Part shown: positions 1 to 8,448 of the stretch, piece by piece
Numbering within the stretch: position 1 is the first letter of the stretch
Layout: the number at the start of each line of letters is the position of its first letter
Notes under the pieces: model-generated
Databases searched by the model: none
Told to the model about the DNA's origin: nothing
The model's input: the letters and a program-made list of their open reading frames with translations, nothing else
Translations under genes and position numbers: made by a program
Assembly: GCA_026388535.1 (NCBI GenBank)
Contig: JAPLJP010000170.1
Location: 1 to 32,779, forward strand
DNA: 32,779 bases
Direction: 5' to 3'
Source of the DNA: Deltaproteobacteria bacterium
Lineage (GTDB): Bacteria > Desulfobacterota > Syntrophia > Syntrophales > Smithellaceae

Positions 1-119
1 TTATTCGTTTTTGTTCGGCCAAGTTAGAGGAAACCCAACGCCGCGTCGAGATGCTTCTGGGGAAAGAAGATTCCTTGCAAGTAAAGCGTTTTCAGGGTGA
101 AGACATTGACCGAGAATGA
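1..119 (+). CDS. xseB: exodeoxyribonuclease VII small subunit, C-terminal end (partial)
   Basis: Reading frame 3 is open from the window edge to a TGA at 117-119 and encodes a short charged tail with the stretch AKLEETQRRVEMLLGKE. This resembles the C-terminal helix of the small subunit of exonuclease VII, which with XseA degrades single-stranded DNA in the cytoplasm. The 5' part lies outside the window. Its end overlaps the start of ispA by 23 bases, so the two are probably translationally coupled, and xseB-ispA-dxs is a common bacterial gene order. The call rests on about 38 residues plus position, so the family is likely but not proven. Confidence 0.72.
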   Translation, partial: IRFCSAKLEETQRRVEMLLGKEDSLQVKRFQGEDIDRE

Positions 120-1011
120 GAATGCATTCTTAAAAGCTTATTTTCAGGATAGGCAAAAGATTGTGGAAGAAGCACTGCTATATTATCTTCCGAAGGAAGA
201 CAATATTCCGGCTGATATATATAAAGCTGTACATTACAGTGTTTTCAACGGAGGAAAACGGATCCGGCCGATTCTTTGTCTGGCGGCGGCGGAGGCGGTT
301 GGAGGCGATCTGGCGCCGGCCATGCCTATTGCCTGCGCCTTGGAATTAATTCACACTTACTCCCTTATTCACGACGATTTGCCCTCGATGGATGACGATG
401 ATTTCCGGCGCGGCCAGCCTACCTGTCACAAAGTTTTCGGAGAGAATATAGCGATTCTGGCCGGCGACGCGTTATTGACGGAGGCGTTTGTTCTTTTATC
501 CCGTGCGGAAAAAGTGAGGCTTTCTGCCGAAAGACGTCTGGCGGTAGTACAGGAAATAGCCAATGCTGCCGGAATTTGCGGCATGGTCGGCGGTCAGGCT
601 CTTGACGTGCTTTCGGAAAAATCCGAACCAAATGAAAACACCCTCCGTGAAATTCATCGTCGCAAAACGGGGGCGATAATTGTTGCCGCGGTGAAATCAG
701 GCGCTATTATTTTTAATGCCGGCAAAGATAAAATTCAAGCGTTGGCTGAATATGGAATAAATGTGGGTCTGGCTTTTCAGATAGCGGATGATATCCTGAA
801 TGTCGAAGGGGACCGTGAGTTAATGGGCAAGGAAACAGGCAGTGACGCTGCCCGCAACAAACTTACCTATCCATCCTTGCTGGGCATGGGAAAGGCGAAA
901 GAAAAATTAGCAAAGTATATAGACGCTGCAGTAGCGAGTCTTTCCGGTTTTGATGAACGTGCCATGCCGCTGATTGTCATTGCTCGCTATATAATGGAAA
1001 GAAAATCATAA
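97..1011 (+). CDS. ispA: polyprenyl (farnesyl/geranylgeranyl) diphosphate synthase
   Basis: Cytoplasmic trans-prenyltransferase that condenses isopentenyl diphosphate with allylic diphosphates to give C15 or C20 chains. The 304 residues contain both aspartate-rich motifs: the first at about residues 93-100 (HDDLPSMDD) and the second at about 231-232 (DDILNVEGD). The GGKRIRP substrate-binding stretch is near residue 52. Length is normal for the family. The start is a GTG at 97 inside the end of xseB. It is followed 28 bases later by dxs in the same direction, so substrate supply and chain elongation are made together. Chain length of the product cannot be read with certainty; an IspA-type short-chain enzyme is the best fit. 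Confidence 0.93.
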   Translation: MKTLTENENAFLKAYFQDRQKIVEEALLYYLPKEDNIPADIYKAVHYSVFNGGKRIRPILCLAAAEAVGGDLAPAMPIACALELIHTYSLIHDDLPSMDDDDFRRGQPTCHKVFGENIAILAGDALLTEAFVLLSRAEKVRLSAERRLAVVQEIANAAGICGMVGGQALDVLSEKSEPNENTLREIHRRKTGAIIVAAVKSGAIIFNAGKDKIQALAEYGINVGLAFQIADDILNVEGDRELMGKETGSDAARNKLTYPSLLGMGKAKEKLAKYIDAAVASLSGFDERAMPLIVIARYIMERKS

Positions 1012-1039: not shown

Positions 1040-2953
1040 TTGGTAAAAAAACAGGAAACAGTTAATTACAGTGTTATGAAGGATGTGGACCTCCCCGCGG
1101 ACATCCGCAAACTTAATATTGCGCAACTAAATACTCTGGCGAGGGAAATAAGAGAGTTGATTATTAATACAGTCGCGTCTTGCGGCGGCCATCTGGCTTC
1201 ATCTTTGGGAACAGTTGAGTTAACTTTGGCTCTCCACTATGTCTTTAATACGCCGCAGGATAAGATTATCTGGGATGTCGGCCATCAGGCTTACGCGCAT
1301 AAAATTATTACCGGACGCAAGGATAAATTCGCTACTTTGCGCAGACAAAACGGCATCAGCGGATTTCCCCGAAGAGAAGAAAGTCCTTATGACGCTTTTA
1401 ATGTCGGGCACAGCGGAACTTCCATATCGGCTGCCGCGGGATTTACCGAAGCCGGGTGTTTAAAAGGCGACAGCAATAAAGTAATCGCTGTTATCGGCGA
1501 CGGCTCCATGACCACGGGAATGGCCTTTGAGGGATTGAACTGGACTGGGGATCGCAAAAAAAACATGATTATCATTTTAAATGATAACGAAATGTCCATT
1601 TCTTCGAACGTGGGTGCGCTGTCTTCCTATCTGAATCGTGTAATGACGGGTCGTACGATAAACACTTTAAAAGCCGATATTAAAAATTTTCTTAAAAGCA
1701 TTCCCGGTGTTGGCGAGTACATGATCAGGTTTTCTCATCAGGTAGAAGAAATTCTAAAAACCCTGATGGTTCCCGGAGCGCTTTTTGAAGAAATGGGTTT
1801 TACTTATGTAGGGCCGCTGGAAGGACACCGATTGAATCACCTTATTAAGAATTTTGAAAACATCAGGGAATTCCCCGGTCCTGTGCTGGCGCATGTTATC
1901 ACAAAAAAAGGGAAAGGATATAGTTTCGCGGAAAATAAACCATTGAATTATCACGGCGTGGGTCCTTTCAATGTGGAAACAGGACAATCTCTTCCTTCAT
2001 CTTCTGATATTCCAACATATACCGAAATATTCGGTCAGACTATTGTTAATTTGGCGCGGTCTGATTCCCGTATTGTTGCTATTACCGCCGCGATGTGTGA
2101 TGGCACCGGACTGGATCAGTTCTGTCAGGAATTTCCTAAACGCTTTTATGACGTGGGCATAGCGGAACAGCATGCGGTGACCTATGCCGCAGGCTTGGCC
2201 GCACAAGGTTTTATTCCTGTAGTCGCCATATATTCAACTTTTCTGCAAAGAGCCTATGATCAAATTGTATATGATGCTTGTCTGCAAAAACTGCCGGTTG
2301 TTTTCGCTATCGACCGCGGCGGGCTTGTTGGTGAGGATGGCGCTACACATCAGGGCCTCCTTGATTATTCTTATTTGCGTTCTATTCCTAATATTATTGT
2401 CATGGCGCCCAAGGATGAAAATGAACTGCAGCACATGATTAAGACTGCCGTTGATTGCGGCCGTCCGGTTTCGTTGCGTTATCCGAGGGGTAAAGGAGTA
2501 GGCGCACGTTTGGATGATGAAATAAAAAAATTGGAGATAGGCAAAGGCGAAATACTGCAGGATGGATCCGATCTGGCCCTCATCGCCATCGGTTCGGTGG
2601 TAACTCCGGCTCTTGCCGCGGCAAAGCGTCTTTCTGAAGAAGGATTTAATGTCAAAGTTATTAATGCCCGTTTTGTTAAACCTCTTGACGAAGAACTGAT
2701 TCTGAATACGGCGGCAACAATTAGAAAAATTATTACAGTTGAAGAAAACATGCTTCAAGGTGGTTTCGGTAGCGCTGTTCTGGAATTATTGGCTGAAAAG
2801 AATATAACCGGTGTTCAGGTAAAGCGGTTGGGTATTCCTGATGAATTTGTCAGTCATGCCACTCAGGCGCAGCAACGCCATAAGTACGGCATTGATGAAG
2901 AAGGTATTATTCTGGCAATAAGAGAAATGCTGTCAAACAAATCCGATAAATAA
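1040..2953 (+). CDS. dxs: 1-deoxy-D-xylulose-5-phosphate synthase
   Basis: Thiamine-diphosphate enzyme joining pyruvate and glyceraldehyde 3-phosphate, the first step of the non-mevalonate isoprenoid pathway. The 637 residues match the usual length. The TPP-binding motif begins at about residue 153 (GDGSMTTGMAFEGLN) and continues to the asparagine-rich end NDNEMSIS; the central part carries DVGIAEQHAVTYAAG and DRGGLVGEDG, and the C-terminal transketolase domain follows. The start is a TTG at 1040 with GGAAAGG about 8 bases upstream. In many bacteria tlyA follows directly; here a minus-strand insert comes next. Same strand as ispA and probably the same transcript. Confidence 0.96.
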   Translation: MVKKQETVNYSVMKDVDLPADIRKLNIAQLNTLAREIRELIINTVASCGGHLASSLGTVELTLALHYVFNTPQDKIIWDVGHQAYAHKIITGRKDKFATLRRQNGISGFPRREESPYDAFNVGHSGTSISAAAGFTEAGCLKGDSNKVIAVIGDGSMTTGMAFEGLNWTGDRKKNMIIILNDNEMSISSNVGALSSYLNRVMTGRTINTLKADIKNFLKSIPGVGEYMIRFSHQVEEILKTLMVPGALFEEMGFTYVGPLEGHRLNHLIKNFENIREFPGPVLAHVITKKGKGYSFAENKPLNYHGVGPFNVETGQSLPSSSDIPTYTEIFGQTIVNLARSDSRIVAITAAMCDGTGLDQFCQEFPKRFYDVGIAEQHAVTYAAGLAAQGFIPVVAIYSTFLQRAYDQIVYDACLQKLPVVFAIDRGGLVGEDGATHQGLLDYSYLRSIPNIIVMAPKDENELQHMIKTAVDCGRPVSLRYPRGKGVGARLDDEIKKLEIGKGEILQDGSDLALIAIGSVVTPALAAAKRLSEEGFNVKVINARFVKPLDEELILNTAATIRKIITVEENMLQGGFGSAVLELLAEKNITGVQVKRLGIPDEFVSHATQAQQRHKYGIDEEGIILAIREMLSNKSDK

Positions 2954-3022: not shown

Positions 3023-4114
3023 TTAGAGAAAATTCTCGTGCGGGACAGGTTTCTTGAGGCTTTCCAAACATCGATTGATGTTGCTGGCCCGGCATTCCAA
3101 ATAGCATTTTTTCATATCAAGGTTTTTTATGATCTTCTGCCTCCTCGACATGATGGTAGCAATGGGCTCATTGATGGCGTTACCAAAGCACAGCTGTTTA
3201 TTGCGGGTTTCAATCTGATGGCAGCAGACATAGTAGTCGCCATGCACATCGATTGCGGCGATCATCATGTAGGCGTGGCAGAAAGAAAAGCCATGGAGAC
3301 GCTTCTTCAAAAAGGGGTTGATAATGTCCCATTTGTTGCTGCGAATGATTTTGAAACAGGGGTGTTCCAGCGGTGAGCTGCGCTCAAGTTGATCCATTAT
3401 GCGGATGTACTGGGCCTTGCTGTATTTCATCCTCTCACCAGGCATGGTTTCCACCGGACGGATCTGGATATAGTCCACGCCCAGACGTGAGGCCAGATTG
3501 ATTTCATCCAATACGTCCTGAAGGTTGTGTTTGTTGATTACCGACTGGAGCCCGATAGTGGTTGTGGATCCCAGCTGCGTTTTAATTTCTACCAGACGGC
3601 GGATGTTCTTGATGACCTCTGAGAAGCCGGCGGTGCCCCTGATTTGCCGGTAAACGTCTGGAGTAGAAGCATCCAGCGAGATGCGGCACCAGGTGCAATG
3701 GCGAAGAATGCTTTTAAAGAGTTGATCGTTGCCCTGCAGCAGATTGGTGATCAGGCCTGAATCCATTTGATGCTTGGCAATCATCCTTATTGCCCTGGCG
3801 CAGCCGGGATGCAAAGTGGGTTCGCCGCCACCACTTAAAATAATCGCTTTGGTTCCGGCTCTGGAAAGTTTGCCAAGAATAATGTCAAAATCTTTTAGTG
3901 TCATGGAGGATAGTGATTTTGGGTATTGACAATAATAACAGGAGTTATTGCAACGTTCGGTGAGATGAATTTCTACTGTAACCGGGGGGACAAGCGTGCC
4001 TTGCTTCCATCTGTTTATAATTTCAGGGTGATGGAAAATCTTGTCGGTGCTTATATAAATGCTGCCTGCTTTTATGGATGAACCCGGGGCCGGGAGTCTA
4101 ATTGGATTCGTCAT
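3023..4114 (-). CDS. radical SAM protein with SPASM-like C-terminal cysteine cluster
   Basis: 363 residues. The N-terminal half has the radical SAM cluster motif CNNSCYYC (Cys55, Cys59, Cys62), which binds a [4Fe-4S] cluster and S-adenosylmethionine, then a GGGEPTLHP stretch typical of the AdoMet barrel. The last third is cysteine-rich (FCHAYMMIAAID, YYVCCHQ, KKCYLECR, NRCLESL), as in SPASM/Twitch proteins that carry extra Fe-S clusters. Such enzymes modify peptides, sugars or other small molecules; the substrate here is unknown. Its ATG overlaps the stop of the DUF5672 gene upstream by 4 bases (ATGA), so the two are translationally coupled. It is antisense to, and sits between, dxs and tlyA. 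Confidence 0.82.
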   Translation of the reverse strand: MTNPIRLPAPGSSIKAGSIYISTDKIFHHPEIINRWKQGTLVPPVTVEIHLTERCNNSCYYCQYPKSLSSMTLKDFDIILGKLSRAGTKAIILSGGGEPTLHPGCARAIRMIAKHQMDSGLITNLLQGNDQLFKSILRHCTWCRISLDASTPDVYRQIRGTAGFSEVIKNIRRLVEIKTQLGSTTTIGLQSVINKHNLQDVLDEINLASRLGVDYIQIRPVETMPGERMKYSKAQYIRIMDQLERSSPLEHPCFKIIRSNKWDIINPFLKKRLHGFSFCHAYMMIAAIDVHGDYYVCCHQIETRNKQLCFGNAINEPIATIMSRRQKIIKNLDMKKCYLECRASNINRCLESLKKPVPHENFL

Positions 4115-4932
4115 TTTTCACCTTTCACCTGATATCCGAGTTGTTTGAGAAAGGGCAGCCAGAAATCCGGTCCATGCTTCTCCCAGGCATGACAGGCAAA
4201 GGGCAGCTGCCGGTGGTTGCGCTTGAAACAGTAGGCCGGATTGCATTCGAAGGAAAAGCTGGCTGCCACCTTGAAGGTAGGAACGCGGAATTGTTTGTAG
4301 AAGGTTGGTACCAGGATAGACCAGAAAAAATCTTCATTGGTGGCTGTTTTGTAACCTTGCTGCCATAACTTTTCCGCCCAGATACGGAAGCGTGTCACTT
4401 CTTCCCGATGGTCGGTTAACACTCTGATAAAAGTCTGCACTTTGCGAAGCGAAAAACCGCCATTGCCCACCTGATAATCCCTGCCGAAGATGGAGCGAAG
4501 CCGCAGGAATTTCTGGGAACGATGCCAGGGAGACATAAAGTCCCTGGCGTAAGGATGTTCACGGGCAAGATTAAACACCCAGGGAGCTCCGATAAAATCG
4601 TAGGGCTGCTGACACCAGAAAGCCAGCTGATCTGAAAAGACAATGGAATCCAACTGGGCCACCAGGATGTGTGAATAGTTGTTAAAGGTTTCATAGAATT
4701 CCAGTGAACAAAAAAGGCGGTCGTAGTTGAGGATGCTTTGGAAGTGGATGGCGGGAAAGTAGATGGTCTGCCCTCCGGAAGCTTTAACAAAAGCCGGATC
4801 AATGCCCGCAGGCAGGGCAAAAAGCAGGGGATAAGATTTCAGAGTTTTTACTATTTGGGAAAGGGCAAAGGCTTCATTGACTGTTAGGGTGCTTTTATGA
4901 AAAGGAACTACCACCGCCACCTTTTCCAGCAT
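4111..4932 (-). CDS. DUF5672-type protein, probable glycosyltransferase-like
   Basis: 273 residues. Features typical of the DUF5672 family as I know it are the N-terminal VAVVVPFHK strand, LVAQLDSIVF (a possible metal-binding DxD-like site is not clear), YDFIGAPW near residue 120, and GNGGFSLRK near residue 155, followed by NEDFFW. These patterns recall a GT-A fold, and the family usually occurs near glycan genes, but no reaction is established. No signal peptide or membrane segment is visible. The gene starts 2 bases after the stop of a truncated glycosyltransferase, whose tail supplies its ribosome binding site (AAGAGG), and it overlaps the radical SAM gene by 4 bases. Confidence 0.7.
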   Translation of the reverse strand: MLEKVAVVVPFHKSTLTVNEAFALSQIVKTLKSYPLLFALPAGIDPAFVKASGGQTIYFPAIHFQSILNYDRLFCSLEFYETFNNYSHILVAQLDSIVFSDQLAFWCQQPYDFIGAPWVFNLAREHPYARDFMSPWHRSQKFLRLRSIFGRDYQVGNGGFSLRKVQTFIRVLTDHREEVTRFRIWAEKLWQQGYKTATNEDFFWSILVPTFYKQFRVPTFKVAASFSFECNPAYCFKRNHRQLPFACHAWEKHGPDFWLPFLKQLGYQVKGEK

Positions 4933-4934
4933 AA

Positions 4935-5135
4935 TTACCTCTTGAGGAGTGCAAAGAGCGCTGCTTCCAGATTAGTTTTTGCTTTGAGGAGATTCCAGTT
5001 TTCTTCTACATGCCTTCTCGCCCTCTGGCCGAACTGGTGGGTGTAGCTCTTGTCTTTGAGCGGACTGCAGGGGAGCCTGCCAAGGAGTTCAGGGTTGTCG
5101 TCAGGGGCCAAAAGACCGTTCACACCTTCCTCAAT
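4935..5135 (-). pseudogene. glycosyltransferase family 4, C-terminal remnant
   Basis: The stretch EEGVNGLLAPDDNPELLG followed by FGQRARRHVEENWNLLKAK is the end of a GT4-type (GT-B fold) sugar transferase, where a glutamate near the start contacts the nucleotide sugar. A complete enzyme has 350-400 residues; here only about 66 are recognisable and the sequence upstream of 5135 has no glycosyltransferase similarity in any minus frame I read. An ATG at 5162 would give a 76-residue product in frame, starting almost exactly where the upstream promoter should initiate. I treat it as a truncated gene whose 3' end survives because the next two genes depend on it for translation. Confidence 0.62.
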
Positions 5136-5168
5136 TTTTTTGATAAGAAACTGCTTTTGCATGGTTGA

Positions 5169-5197
5169 ACTATAGGAAGGCTGGTCCTGTATGTCAA
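5169..5197 (-). promoter_or_regulatory. sigma-70-type promoter for the glycan/radical SAM insert
   Basis: On the minus strand TTGACA (5192-5197) and TATAGT (5169-5174) are separated by 17 bases, close to the housekeeping consensus. Predicted initiation is near 5162. A dyad GTCAAG-5 bases-CTTGAC (5193-5209) overlaps the -35 box and could be an operator. It would transcribe the glycosyltransferase remnant, the DUF5672 gene and the radical SAM gene. Confidence 0.6.
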
Positions 5198-5272
5198 GGT
5201 AATCTTGACCACAAAATATGCAGTGCGACACGAATAACAGCACTGATTGTCGAAGGGGAAATTCTAGGAAGT

Positions 5273-5300
5273 TTGATTCAATCTTGTTTTACCTTACAAT
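5273..5300 (+). promoter_or_regulatory. candidate promoter of tlyA
   Basis: TTGATT (5273-5278) and TACAAT (5295-5300) are separated by 16 bases. Initiation would fall near 5307, just ahead of the chosen tlyA start at 5332. It would give tlyA and the genes after it a promoter of their own now that the insert cuts them off from dxs. Confidence 0.45.
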
Positions 5301-5331
5301 ATCTGGTAGTTCACAATACAGGAATGGGCGA

Positions 5332-6078
5332 ATGAAAGAAACTCAAAAAATTCGTTTGGATAAATTGCTGATTGACCGCGGAATCGCGCCCACGCTGGAA
5401 AAAGCCCGCGCGCTGATTCTGGCCCGGGCGGTCAAAATCAACGAAACATTTGTGGATAAAGCCGGCACCCCTGTTCCTGTTGACGCTGAAATACATATAA
5501 AGGGTGAAGACAATCCTTACGTGAGCCGCGGGGGATTAAAACTGTCCGGGGCCTTAAAAGAATTTCAACTGGATGTGGAGAATATTGTCGCTTTTGATGT
5601 CGGGGCTTCCACCGGAGGTTTTACGGATTGCCTTTTACAGGCGGGCGCCCGCAAAGTTTACGCTCTCGATGTCGGCTATGGCCAGTTGGCGTGGAAATTG
5701 CGCGAAGATAAGCGTGTTGTTGTGATCGAGCGCACGAATGTTCGTTATTATGACGGCGCTGATCTGGATGAACAAATTGATTTAGCCGTCATCGACGCTT
5801 CTTTTATTTCTTTGAAAATTGTTATTCCCGCGGTTGTAAAATTTCTGGGAGATGGGGCGCGAATTCTGGCGCTGATTAAGCCGCAGTTTGAAGCCCGGCG
5901 GGACGAAGTAGGCGAGGGAGGCGTGGTCAGGGACGCCGCTGTTCATGAGCAAGTGGTGCGGGATATCAGCGGATTCTGCGAGTCACTGCAATTGGAAGTG
6001 GAAGGAACCTGCGCATCGCCTATTTTAGGCCCGGCGGGTAACAGAGAATTTTTTATTTTGGCGCGAAAGAAAGAGTAA
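5332..6078 (+). CDS. tlyA: TlyA-family rRNA (cytidine-2'-O)-methyltransferase
   Basis: 248 residues from the ATG at 5332. The N-terminus (RLDKLLIDRGIAPTLEKAR) is an S4 RNA-binding domain, and the rest is an FtsJ/RrmJ-like methyltransferase with the SAM-binding motif FDVGASTGGFTDCLL near residue 85 and ALIKPQFE near residue 185. Family members methylate 16S and/or 23S rRNA cytidines; some were first described as haemolysins. The frame is open further upstream to 5218, but that extension has no S4 similarity and would run across the likely promoter, so I use 5332, which has AGGA 6-9 bases upstream. It ends 1 base before ispH. Confidence 0.9.
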   Translation: MKETQKIRLDKLLIDRGIAPTLEKARALILARAVKINETFVDKAGTPVPVDAEIHIKGEDNPYVSRGGLKLSGALKEFQLDVENIVAFDVGASTGGFTDCLLQAGARKVYALDVGYGQLAWKLREDKRVVVIERTNVRYYDGADLDEQIDLAVIDASFISLKIVIPAVVKFLGDGARILALIKPQFEARRDEVGEGGVVRDAAVHEQVVRDISGFCESLQLEVEGTCASPILGPAGNREFFILARKKE

Positions 6079-6079
6079 A

Positions 6080-7807
6080 ATGGAAATTAAACTTGCCGAG
6101 ACCGCTGGATTTTGCATGGGCGTGCGCAGAGCCGTGGATATTGTGCTGGAAATAGCCCAGCATGAAACCAGCCGCCGGATTTATACTTACGGTCCATTGA
6201 TTCATAATCCGCAAACAATTGAATTGCTCAAGAGCCGCGGCGTCAAACCGATCGAAAATATCGAGGAAATAAAAGACAAAGAGAACGCTATCCTGATTAT
6301 TCGCGCTCACGGAATCGCTCCGGCCGAAAGAAAAAAAATCAAGGAAAGCGGAATTAAAATTGTTGATGCCACCTGCCCAAAAGTTGGTTACGTGCAATCC
6401 ATCATCAAGAAACATGCGGCTCTTGATTATACAGTGGTGATCGTGGGCGATAAAGAACATCCGGAAGTTGACGGCCTTTTGGGTTACACCGGCGGCCGGA
6501 GCATTATTCTGGCCACGTTGGATGATGTGGATAAATTATCTTCCATTGATAAAGTTTGTGTTGTTGCTCAAACAACGCAAGATTCTGATAATTACGGCAA
6601 GATTGTTGAAAAAATAAAAGAAATCTGCCCTCAGGCAATTGTCTTTAATACTATTTGTTCTTCAACGGAACAAAGGCAGGCGGAAGTTATAGCAATGGCA
6701 GGCGAGATGGATGCGATGTTCATCGTCGGCGGGAAAAACAGCGCCAATACAAGAAGACTGGCTGACCTTGCTCAAAAACAACAATCTTCCACTTTTCACA
6801 TCGAAACAACAGCTGATATGGAAAATATTAATTTCGGTCCCTACAATCGCATTGGAGTTTCGGCGGGCGCTTCCACTCCGAACTGGATCATCGATAGAGT
6901 GATGGATAAACTTATGGAAGGTCAAAGCCGTAAGCTGAAAATGATGGGCAAATTGCTCAATCTTTGGATACTGGCAATTAAAACTGATATCTATTCAGCT
7001 CTTGGTGCCGGCTGTCTTTGTCTGGTTTGTATGCTGTTGCAGGGAATACCCGTGAGTCTGTCCTTCATAATGATTGCCTCTTTTTTTGTATACGCGATGC
7101 ATGTTTTAAACCGGCTGCTTGGCCGCAAACCGGTCGGTCTTGTCGGTTCCTTCCGGGAAGAGAGTTACCGCCGGTATGGGAAATTATATTGTTACACAGC
7201 TTTGCTTTCTATCGCGGTTGCTCTTGTGCTGGCTTTTAATAAAGCGTTTTTTCTTTTTCTTTTTTTATTTATGATTTCGCTTGCCGGTGTAATTTATAAT
7301 ATAAAAATTCTGCCTAAAAAATGGCACTTCCAGAGTTTTAAAGATTTACCCGGTTCGAAGAATATATTTATGTCCGCCGCGTGGGGAATGGTAACGGCAA
7401 TTTTACCTGCTTTAAACAAAGAATATTACTATCAAGCCGGTTTAATTATCGCTTTCAGTTTTACCTTTGGACTCGTTTTTATCCGTTCGGCAATGTCGGA
7501 TATTCTGGAAATTCAAAGTGATAAATTAATAGGACAAGAAACGATTCCCGTGTTTTTCGGCAAAAAAAGAACGATAACAGTTCTCGAAATTATTTCATTG
7601 ATATTATTAGCTCTTCTTCTTTTTTCTTATCCGGCAGGTTGGGCTTCGTCTTTGAGTTTTTTTCTGCTTGTCTGTGTATTATATCTATGGATTTGTTTTC
7701 AGTTTTGTGATAAAAAACCTGGGCTTTCCGGGGCTGTTAAGGAAGGCCTTCTGGAAACCAGCTATATTATAGCTGGTTTTTGTGTTTTCATGTGGCGTAT
7801 TTTCTGA
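6080..7807 (+). CDS. ispH: 4-hydroxy-3-methylbut-2-enyl diphosphate reductase fused to a UbiA-like prenyltransferase domain
   Basis: 575 residues against about 280-310 for ordinary IspH. Residues 1 to about 280 are a complete IspH, the last enzyme of the non-mevalonate pathway, with the three cysteines that hold the [4Fe-4S] cluster at Cys12 (GFCMGV), Cys99 (TCPKV) and Cys193 (NTICSST). From about 290 onward there are seven to nine hydrophobic segments resembling the UbiA superfamily. Its second aspartate motif is present near 474-481 (SDILEIQSDKLIGQETIP). At the place of the first motif there is HVLNRLLGRK (about 341-350), without the usual aspartates, so catalysis is uncertain. No stop or frameshift separates the halves. 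Nfu and ferredoxin genes lie downstream. A terminator-like hairpin lies within the last codons. Confidence 0.9.
   Translation: MEIKLAETAGFCMGVRRAVDIVLEIAQHETSRRIYTYGPLIHNPQTIELLKSRGVKPIENIEEIKDKENAILIIRAHGIAPAERKKIKESGIKIVDATCPKVGYVQSIIKKHAALDYTVVIVGDKEHPEVDGLLGYTGGRSIILATLDDVDKLSSIDKVCVVAQTTQDSDNYGKIVEKIKEICPQAIVFNTICSSTEQRQAEVIAMAGEMDAMFIVGGKNSANTRRLADLAQKQQSSTFHIETTADMENINFGPYNRIGVSAGASTPNWIIDRVMDKLMEGQSRKLKMMGKLLNLWILAIKTDIYSALGAGCLCLVCMLLQGIPVSLSFIMIASFFVYAMHVLNRLLGRKPVGLVGSFREESYRRYGKLYCYTALLSIAVALVLAFNKAFFLFLFLFMISLAGVIYNIKILPKKWHFQSFKDLPGSKNIFMSAAWGMVTAILPALNKEYYYQAGLIIAFSFTFGLVFIRSAMSDILEIQSDKLIGQETIPVFFGKKRTITVLEIISLILLALLLFSYPAGWASSLSFFLLVCVLYLWICFQFCDKKPGLSGAVKEGLLETSYIIAGFCVFMWRIF
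7756..7782 (+). terminator. terminator-like hairpin inside the 3' end of ispH
   Basis: AACCAGCTA (7756-7764), a 5-base loop and TAGCTGGTT (7770-7778) form a perfect 9-bp stem followed by a T run (5 T's at 7777-7781, then GTGTTTT). It lies 25 bases before the ispH stop codon, so translating ribosomes would cover it. It may attenuate transcription into the lipoprotein gene when translation is weak. Confidence 0.5.
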
Positions 7808-7848
7808 TATGGAATTATTTCCCGGGGAAGAAGGGGGGTTTTAAAATT

Positions 7849-8448
7849 ATGAAAAAAAATATTTTCGCGAAACTTATTTTAATGATTTTTGTTTTGACAA
7901 CAATCGCTTGCAGCGGATTGCGTTTTTCTGAATCAGCGCCGGAGGCAAAAGGTTTTCATCCGCAAAATGTGGCCATATTCCCGGTGGAAGTTTGGAATAA
8001 TGAAGAAACAAAAGCTGTAAAGGTAGTAATGGAACAAGTTATCGCGGGTTCACTCGTTGAAAAAAAATGGTTCGCCAAAGTAATAGATAAGGAGAGCCTG
8101 GATAATCAGCTTCTGGCCGATGAAGAATTGAATAAGGCAATGAAGGAATATCTTTCTAAATTGCAGGAAGTTAAATTTTCCGATCCTGATTTAAGCCAAA
8201 AAATCGGCGAATTAGCCAAGGTTGACGCGTTTTTGCTGGTGTCAATTGATGAGTGGAATTATGTCGTCGAGAAGGATGAAAACGTGGCTAAGGTTGGCAT
8301 GACCATGAAATTATACGAGGCTTCTACTGGCAAGTTAATGTGGAAAGCCGGACAGGATATAAAGAAAAATTATTTAGTGATAAAACCGGATTTGACGAAA
8401 ATAGCCCGTGATGTTATTCGTCAAATGATTGATTACATGCCGCATTAA
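7849..8448 (+). CDS. putative lipoprotein, GNA1162/CsgG-like
   Basis: 199 residues from the ATG at 7849. A lysine-rich start, hydrophobic segment and lipobox TIAC with Cys21 mark a lipoprotein signal peptide, so the protein is probably anchored in the periplasm or outer membrane. The body (NVAIFPVEVW, KVDAFLLVSIDEW, KLYEASTGKLMWKAGQD) resembles families that follow the pattern of GNA1162-type and CsgG-related periplasmic lipoproteins, but the match is from memory and weak. The open frame extends upstream to 7780 inside ispH; the ATG is preferred because the signal peptide starts there and AAGGGGGG lies upstream. The function is unknown. Confidence 0.72.
   Translation: MKKNIFAKLILMIFVLTTIACSGLRFSESAPEAKGFHPQNVAIFPVEVWNNEETKAVKVVMEQVIAGSLVEKKWFAKVIDKESLDNQLLADEELNKAMKEYLSKLQEVKFSDPDLSQKIGELAKVDAFLLVSIDEWNYVVEKDENVAKVGMTMKLYEASTGKLMWKAGQDIKKNYLVIKPDLTKIARDVIRQMIDYMPH

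Follow-up and report, generated by a model that had tools for sequence, protein, structure and literature searches.

An IspH-UbiA fusion protein of the Smithellaceae whose membrane domain has lost a first-motif aspartate and stays under selection

Introduction

The window analysed here, 32,779 nucleotides of contig JAPLJP010000170.1 from a deltaproteobacterium of the Smithellaceae (GCA_026388535.1), encodes a protein in which IspH is followed, in the same frame, by a polytopic membrane domain related to the UbiA prenyltransferases. Its first Asp-rich motif is altered, which raises the question of whether the membrane half is a prenyltransferase, a module that handles isoprenyl diphosphates in another manner, or a simple anchor for IspH.

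Such IspH-UbiA fusions were described in 2015 as ‘Rosetta stone’ proteins of sulfate reducers by Rao et al. (Chem Sci, PMC4746011), who counted 47 of them in sulfate-reducing anaerobes and filed the UbiA part as PT_UbiA_5. They reported separate UbiA/MenA proteins in the fusion genomes, and their attempt to express a whole IspH-UbiA protein failed (PMC4746011). The proposed roles were localization of IspH to the membrane or a local supply of IPP/DMAPP, the function being left open (PMC4746011). In the literature that we searched, we found no work on PT_UbiA_5 or IspH-UbiA after 2015. The architecture is thus not new, and the window gene is another copy of this published Desulfobacterota family. 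According to the original prediction, a long-known, annotated architecture with a defined function would have refuted it; the fusion itself proved to be in print, but without a settled function.

Results

An intact IspH joined to a UbiA-fold membrane domain

The fusion is encoded on the forward strand by a single, uninterrupted open reading frame of 575 codons (6080-7807). Its IspH (LytB) domain comprises residues 1-284 (6080-6931, forward strand). It matches the Pfam LYTB family (PF02401) over residues 3-278 with an E value of 2.7e-90, over the curated cut-off, scores 282 bits for TIGR00216 against a cut-off of 187.85, and aligns with Escherichia coli IspH with a Z score of 31.9. The three ligands of the [4Fe-4S] cluster, C12 (6113-6115), C99 (6374-6376) and C193 (6656-6658, all forward strand), are invariant in 22 relatives together with H42, H77, H127, E129, T165, S221, N223 and S265, so that both the cluster Cys residues and the active-site His/Glu/Thr/Ser/Asn set that characterize IspH are present. 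As the fusion is the sole IspH of the genome, IspH activity is likely.

A linker that forms an amphipathic helix in the AlphaFold2 model precedes the first transmembrane segment (residues 287-301, 6938-6982, forward strand). It is loosely conserved, with the highest column entropy among the segments measured. The remainder of the protein (residues 302-575, 6983-7804, forward strand) is predicted to form nine membrane helices. The Pfam UbiA family (PF01040) matches residues 373-541 with an E value of about 1e-9, or 2e-10 when the C-terminal part is searched alone, again over the curated cut-off. The AlphaFold2 model of the whole protein has a mean pLDDT of 81.6 and was built from a shallow alignment of 22 sequences, all from Syntrophales; it contains the IspH domain, helix 287-301 and the nine membrane helices. 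Its second half aligns with ApUbiA (4OD4) with a Z score of 18.4 over 254 residues and with 4TQ4 with a Z score of 16.9, as compared with 15 and below for soluble isoprenyl diphosphate synthases. The C-terminal half thus has the nine-helix fold of the UbiA superfamily, to solved structures of which it shows 12-19% identity. These analyses bear out the original prediction of an intact IspH with three cluster Cys running in frame into a UbiA-like domain, and the model supports its proposal that the fusion may tie IspH to the membrane.

A chance or assembly join was ruled out, as the same open reading frame occurs in many independent Smithella and other Syntrophales genomes and also across the phylum.

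Distribution of the fusion family

In an even sample of 395 genomes from across the phylum, at least about 140 of the matches listed are fusions spanning both domains, and many further matches cover IspH only. Nearly every sampled Syntrophales genome carries a fusion, and in a sample of the class the UbiA part was matched in 95 of 99 genomes. The named relatives are from Smithella and other Syntrophales MAGs and share 47-87% identity with the window protein. A scan of a genome collection returned Syntrophales-type deltaproteobacteria only, because it was queried with peptides of the window protein. The pairwise distances of the IspH and UbiA halves are correlated (Mantel r 0.67, against at most 0.14 in 500 permutations), as expected for a fusion of old date whose halves have been inherited together.

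The window protein, with IspH and a C-terminal UbiA domain in one polypeptide of a deltaproteobacterium, shares with the fusions of Rao et al. the domain order, the phylum, a size of about 575 residues, the intact IspH cysteines and the presence of separate UbiA/MenA proteins in the genome. Unlike theirs, the hosts found here are syntrophs and not only sulfate reducers. The IspH-RPS1 fusions similarly represent C-terminal extensions of IspH in anaerobes, but their partner is ribosomal protein S1, which is soluble and binds RNA.

Some variants of this organization were also observed. The fusion is split into two frames or contains stops in a few genomes (L028:6001-7618, with 310 and 257 residues; L134; G024:C63), which may be MAG errors or a real split gene. 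In one MAG (isolate fen_1165), the fusion is present twice in full length (L005 and L013, with 86% and 73% identity to the window protein), because of either mixed binning or a genuine duplication. In another genome that has a UbiA fusion, a second IspH with 35% identity is found in an open frame of 912 residues (G028:C32:101277-102092), possibly another IspH fusion.

Genetic environment

Directly upstream of the fusion gene lies a gene for a TlyA-type S4/FtsJ methyltransferase (5218-6078, forward strand), assigned by Pfam and synteny, which adjoins the fusion in almost every Smithella locus of sufficient length. Further upstream, the same cluster contains an ispA-type polyprenyl synthetase gene (97-1011, forward strand; PF00348, E 5e-61) and dxs for the first enzyme of the MEP pathway (1040-2953, forward strand; DXP_synthase_N, E 3e-119), both of which are syntenic in Smithella. 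The gene directly downstream (7780-8448, forward strand) codes for a likely lipoprotein that belongs to no Pfam family and is found in all Smithella relatives examined. The order in Smithella is ispA, dxs, a variable insert, tlyA, ispH-ubiA and the lipoprotein gene, which places the fusion in an isoprenoid cluster. In the window, the dxs-tlyA insert holds a radical SAM gene, a DUF5672 gene and a 102-residue fragment on the reverse strand (3023-5243). The insert is missing from three close relatives (L005, L010 and L011), and three others (L006-L008) have gaps of 1.2-3.1 kb at this variable spot.

Across the phylum, no neighbouring gene was found that would name a prenyl acceptor, and the recurring neighbours outside Syntrophales have no link with prenylation. 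A PADLOC scan returned no match. All eight fusion genomes checked contain another UbiA-family gene. Thus, the idea that the fusion is the only quinone prenyltransferase of the cell is not supported, and it rather represents an added function.

The first motif has lost its Mg2+-binding aspartate

The consensus first motif of UbiA enzymes is NDxxDxxxD. In AfUbiA, N68 and D72 coordinate the first Mg2+, with D76 too distant for direct binding, and replacing N68 or D72 by Ala abolishes the binding of GPP (PMC4106721). The counterparts in MjDGGGPS are N62, D66 and D70 (PMC9385802). In the original prediction, the sequence HVLNRLLGRK was taken for a degenerate first motif. The position was right and an Asp is indeed lost, but the register had to be corrected. 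Based on alignments of 93 fusions, on a profile alignment of the fused domain with MjDGGGPS (6M31) in which N344 corresponds to N62, and on ordinary UbiA controls, we delineated a rebuilt motif H341xxN344R345xxG348...R359...Y363 (residues 341-363, 7100-7168, forward strand). N344 is the equivalent of AfUbiA N68, and G348 and V352 occupy the D72 and D76 positions. The Asn of the canonical pair of first-motif Mg2+ ligands is therefore kept, and what sets the motif apart is the replacement of D72 by Gly. An alternative register, with H341 as the Asp of ND and N344 as the next Asp, was dropped on the basis of the 6M31 profile alignment and the standalone paralogs. In the AlphaFold2 model, the loop that bears the motif has a pLDDT below 50 (residues 350-356), too low to read metal geometry.

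The ordinary UbiA/MqnP proteins of the phylum have a first motif of the form AMxxNRxxDxxxDxxNPRT. As the NRxxD form is usual, R345 is normal, and Arg after Asn was discarded as a sign of degeneration. The D72 equivalent is retained in 28 of the 29 readable ordinary UbiA-family proteins of the phylum and of the genome itself. One standalone UbiA-family gene of the same genome (L003, G000:C14:6115-6807) has the sequence NAFFGRDHD, with no Asp at the D72 position and the D76 position kept. The standalone paralogs nearest to the fused domain, from Smithella and other Syntrophales (L145-L149; 16-18% identity), harbour a QWNRLTDxxED motif with both Asp residues. The H341 residue, three positions ahead of the Asn, is specific to the fusion family.

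Among the 93 fusions, 44 have an acidic residue at position 348. This residue is found in 40 of the 54 fusions outside Syntrophales, seven more of which have an acid at 352 alone, as against four of the 39 in Syntrophales, where it is lost in 35. Most fusions outside Syntrophales keep both the Asn and the first Asp, which rules out a degenerate motif common to all and shows that being fused to IspH does not in itself entail loss of the first Asp. In a tree computed without the motif columns, the first-motif Asp changed about ten times, and well-supported branches force at least six of these events for the state with neither Asp. In Syntrophales, the cap loop L2-3 has also been rewritten, from NDPxRAxFY to G[ST]FRExxY with an invariant R359. 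Rao et al. reported two DXXXD motifs in the UbiA part of their fusions (PMC4746011), but the window protein has no DxxxD at motif 1, most Syntrophales members are without any first-motif Asp, and acids at both positions are found in only four of the 93 fusions. The two-DXXXD description is thus not general, and we correct it here.

These observations bear on the first alternative to the explanation that we prefer, namely that of an ordinary Mg2+-dependent prenyltransferase acting on some acceptor, with its donor derived from the IPP/DMAPP made next door and H341 or other residues replacing the Asp. This corresponds to the Rosetta-stone proposal of Rao et al. The fold, the equivalents of N68 and Y139 and the acidic set of the third motif are all shared with the UbiA/MqnP enzymes of known structure (AfUbiA 4TQ3, ApUbiA 4OD5, MjDGGGPS 6M31). 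In favour of this idea, most fusions outside Syntrophales have kept the equivalents of N68 and D72, the second motif and the Tyr are maintained, and ispA and dxs are nearby. Moreover, UBIAD1 is active with the sequence N102TYYDFSKG (PMC9314443), in which the final Asp of the motif is missing; this Asp is therefore not essential for a UbiA enzyme. Nevertheless, UBIAD1 retains the D72 position, while the window protein and 34 other Syntrophales members are devoid of any first-motif Asp. The D72A substitution abolishes GPP binding in AfUbiA and equivalent changes kill EcMenA (PMC4106721), and Ala substitutions of D66 or D70 strongly lower the activity of MjDGGGPS (PMC9385802). An ordinary transferase thus appears rather unlikely, although it deserves consideration.

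A conserved pocket under purifying selection

The original prediction also held that the second Asp motif is present. The acidic set has indeed been kept, but the motif reads D474xxE477xQxD481xxxGxET (residues 474-488, 7499-7543, forward strand), with ExxxD (E477xxxD481) at the strict DxxxD positions and D474 as the additional acid. D481 is found in 91 of the 93 fusions and an Asp or Glu at 474 in all of them. Y406 (7295-7297, forward strand), present in 61 of 62 fusions, probably represents the active-site Tyr of TM4 (Y139 in AfUbiA), as suggested by the conserved ‘lY’ that ends this helix. H341 and N344 are found in 91 and 89 of the 93 fusions, respectively, and these two residues with Y406, K427, W435, D474 and D481 are among the most conserved of the domain. 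Its most conserved segment is the cap that follows TM6, with a column entropy of 1.32 (cap3) compared with 2.0-2.9 for most helices.

The dN/dS values between Smithella sequences range from 0.11 to 0.23 for the UbiA half and mostly from 0.04 to 0.12 for IspH. At matched IspH distances of 0.25 or more, the UbiA half of the Syntrophales fusions that lack D72 is less diverged than that of the fusions that have it; the UbiA divergence ratios at IspH distances of 0.4-0.6 are 1.35 and 1.83, respectively. Below 0.25, the comparison comprises three pairs only. Decay of the UbiA half is ruled out by the dN/dS values and by the absence of a speed-up after Asp loss. Together, the loss of the Asp and the tight selection on this half suggest changed use rather than decay.

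Ligand-pocket residues that are conserved around an expendable catalytic Asp would also fit with a second alternative, that the UbiA half senses prenyl diphosphates and reports the levels of downstream isoprenoids to the IspH half. The model for this is UBIAD1, a UbiA-fold protein that senses GGPP and is physically tied to HMG-CoA reductase, which catalyses the committed step of the other isoprenoid pathway. Like the fused domain, it has a first motif short of the full NDxxDxxxD, and the partner in the fusion is the last enzyme of the MEP route. However, the argument is one of analogy. UBIAD1 is a separate polypeptide with a different reductase, it acts through protein stability rather than by fusion, it has kept D72, and GGPP binding and menaquinone-4 synthesis have been shown for it. 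A sensor of this kind therefore seems unlikely. Taken further, the Syntrophales UbiA half might be a receptor for isoprenyl diphosphates that performs no transfer and feeds back on the joined IspH, or channels substrate to or from it, which we regard as a doubtful proposition. Equally speculative is a parallel with the pairing of UBIAD1 and HMG-CoA reductase, of which such a receptor would represent a bacterial equivalent that arose by loss of the first Mg2+ Asp with the pocket kept.

Lastly, an inert membrane anchor devoid of catalysis, which the hydrophobic nine-helix domain and the repeated losses of the first-motif Asp might evoke, is the least likely explanation and a very improbable one, given that conservation peaks at the pocket and not in the helices generally, that no acceleration followed the loss of the Asp, and that dN/dS is well below 1.

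Discussion

The original prediction had offered a choice between a new prenyl transfer activity and an anchor that has lost catalysis. Our analyses narrow this choice, as they disfavour a pure anchor. The explanation that we prefer, with about even confidence and from sequence comparisons, is that IspH is tethered to the membrane by a UbiA half that still handles an isoprenyl diphosphate by means of a rebuilt metal site. This half would be neither a simple anchor nor a canonical prenyltransferase with two metals. The N-terminal half would convert HMBPP to IPP/DMAPP, as the full conservation of its cluster and active-site residues indicates, and it would probably be kept on the cytoplasmic side of the membrane. 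The UbiA half of most family members appears to have a minimal catalytic set made of the N68 and D72 equivalents, the Tyr and the second Asp motif, which could represent the minimum for handling prenyl groups in a Mg2+-dependent manner.

In Smithella and other Syntrophales, D72, the only Asp that binds the first Mg2+ directly, is gone and the cap loop is altered, with His341, Asn344, Tyr406, Lys427 and the second metal motif under strong purifying selection. The first metal site would be unable to function in the AfUbiA manner, but selection maintains the pocket, and the domain thus probably handles isoprenyl diphosphate in a changed way. It most likely binds this ligand in the membrane, beside the enzyme that makes the C5 units, possibly through one metal and contacts with Asn, His, Arg and Lys residues. 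The weakest point of this explanation is that AfUbiA lost GPP binding upon the D72A substitution in spite of its intact second motif, which argues against diphosphate binding by the window protein unless other residues compensate. Repurposing away from two-metal prenyl transfer might have yielded a modified transfer reaction, or a role in substrate handling or in the regulation of IspH.

What is new at this locus is that the Syntrophales/Smithella lineage has lost the key metal-binding Asp of the membrane half while that half remains under tight selection. The role of the IspH-UbiA proteins has been open since 2015. The fusions form a natural series. At one end, the first metal site has both Asn and Asp; the Asp disappears repeatedly and independently along the series, and at the other end stand the Syntrophales fusions, with none left but with a strongly conserved pocket. 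Beyond correcting the published statement on the two DXXXD motifs of the fused domain (PMC4746011), this series allows the two possibilities for the UbiA half, an enzyme or a module that handles ligands, to be tested directly by comparison.
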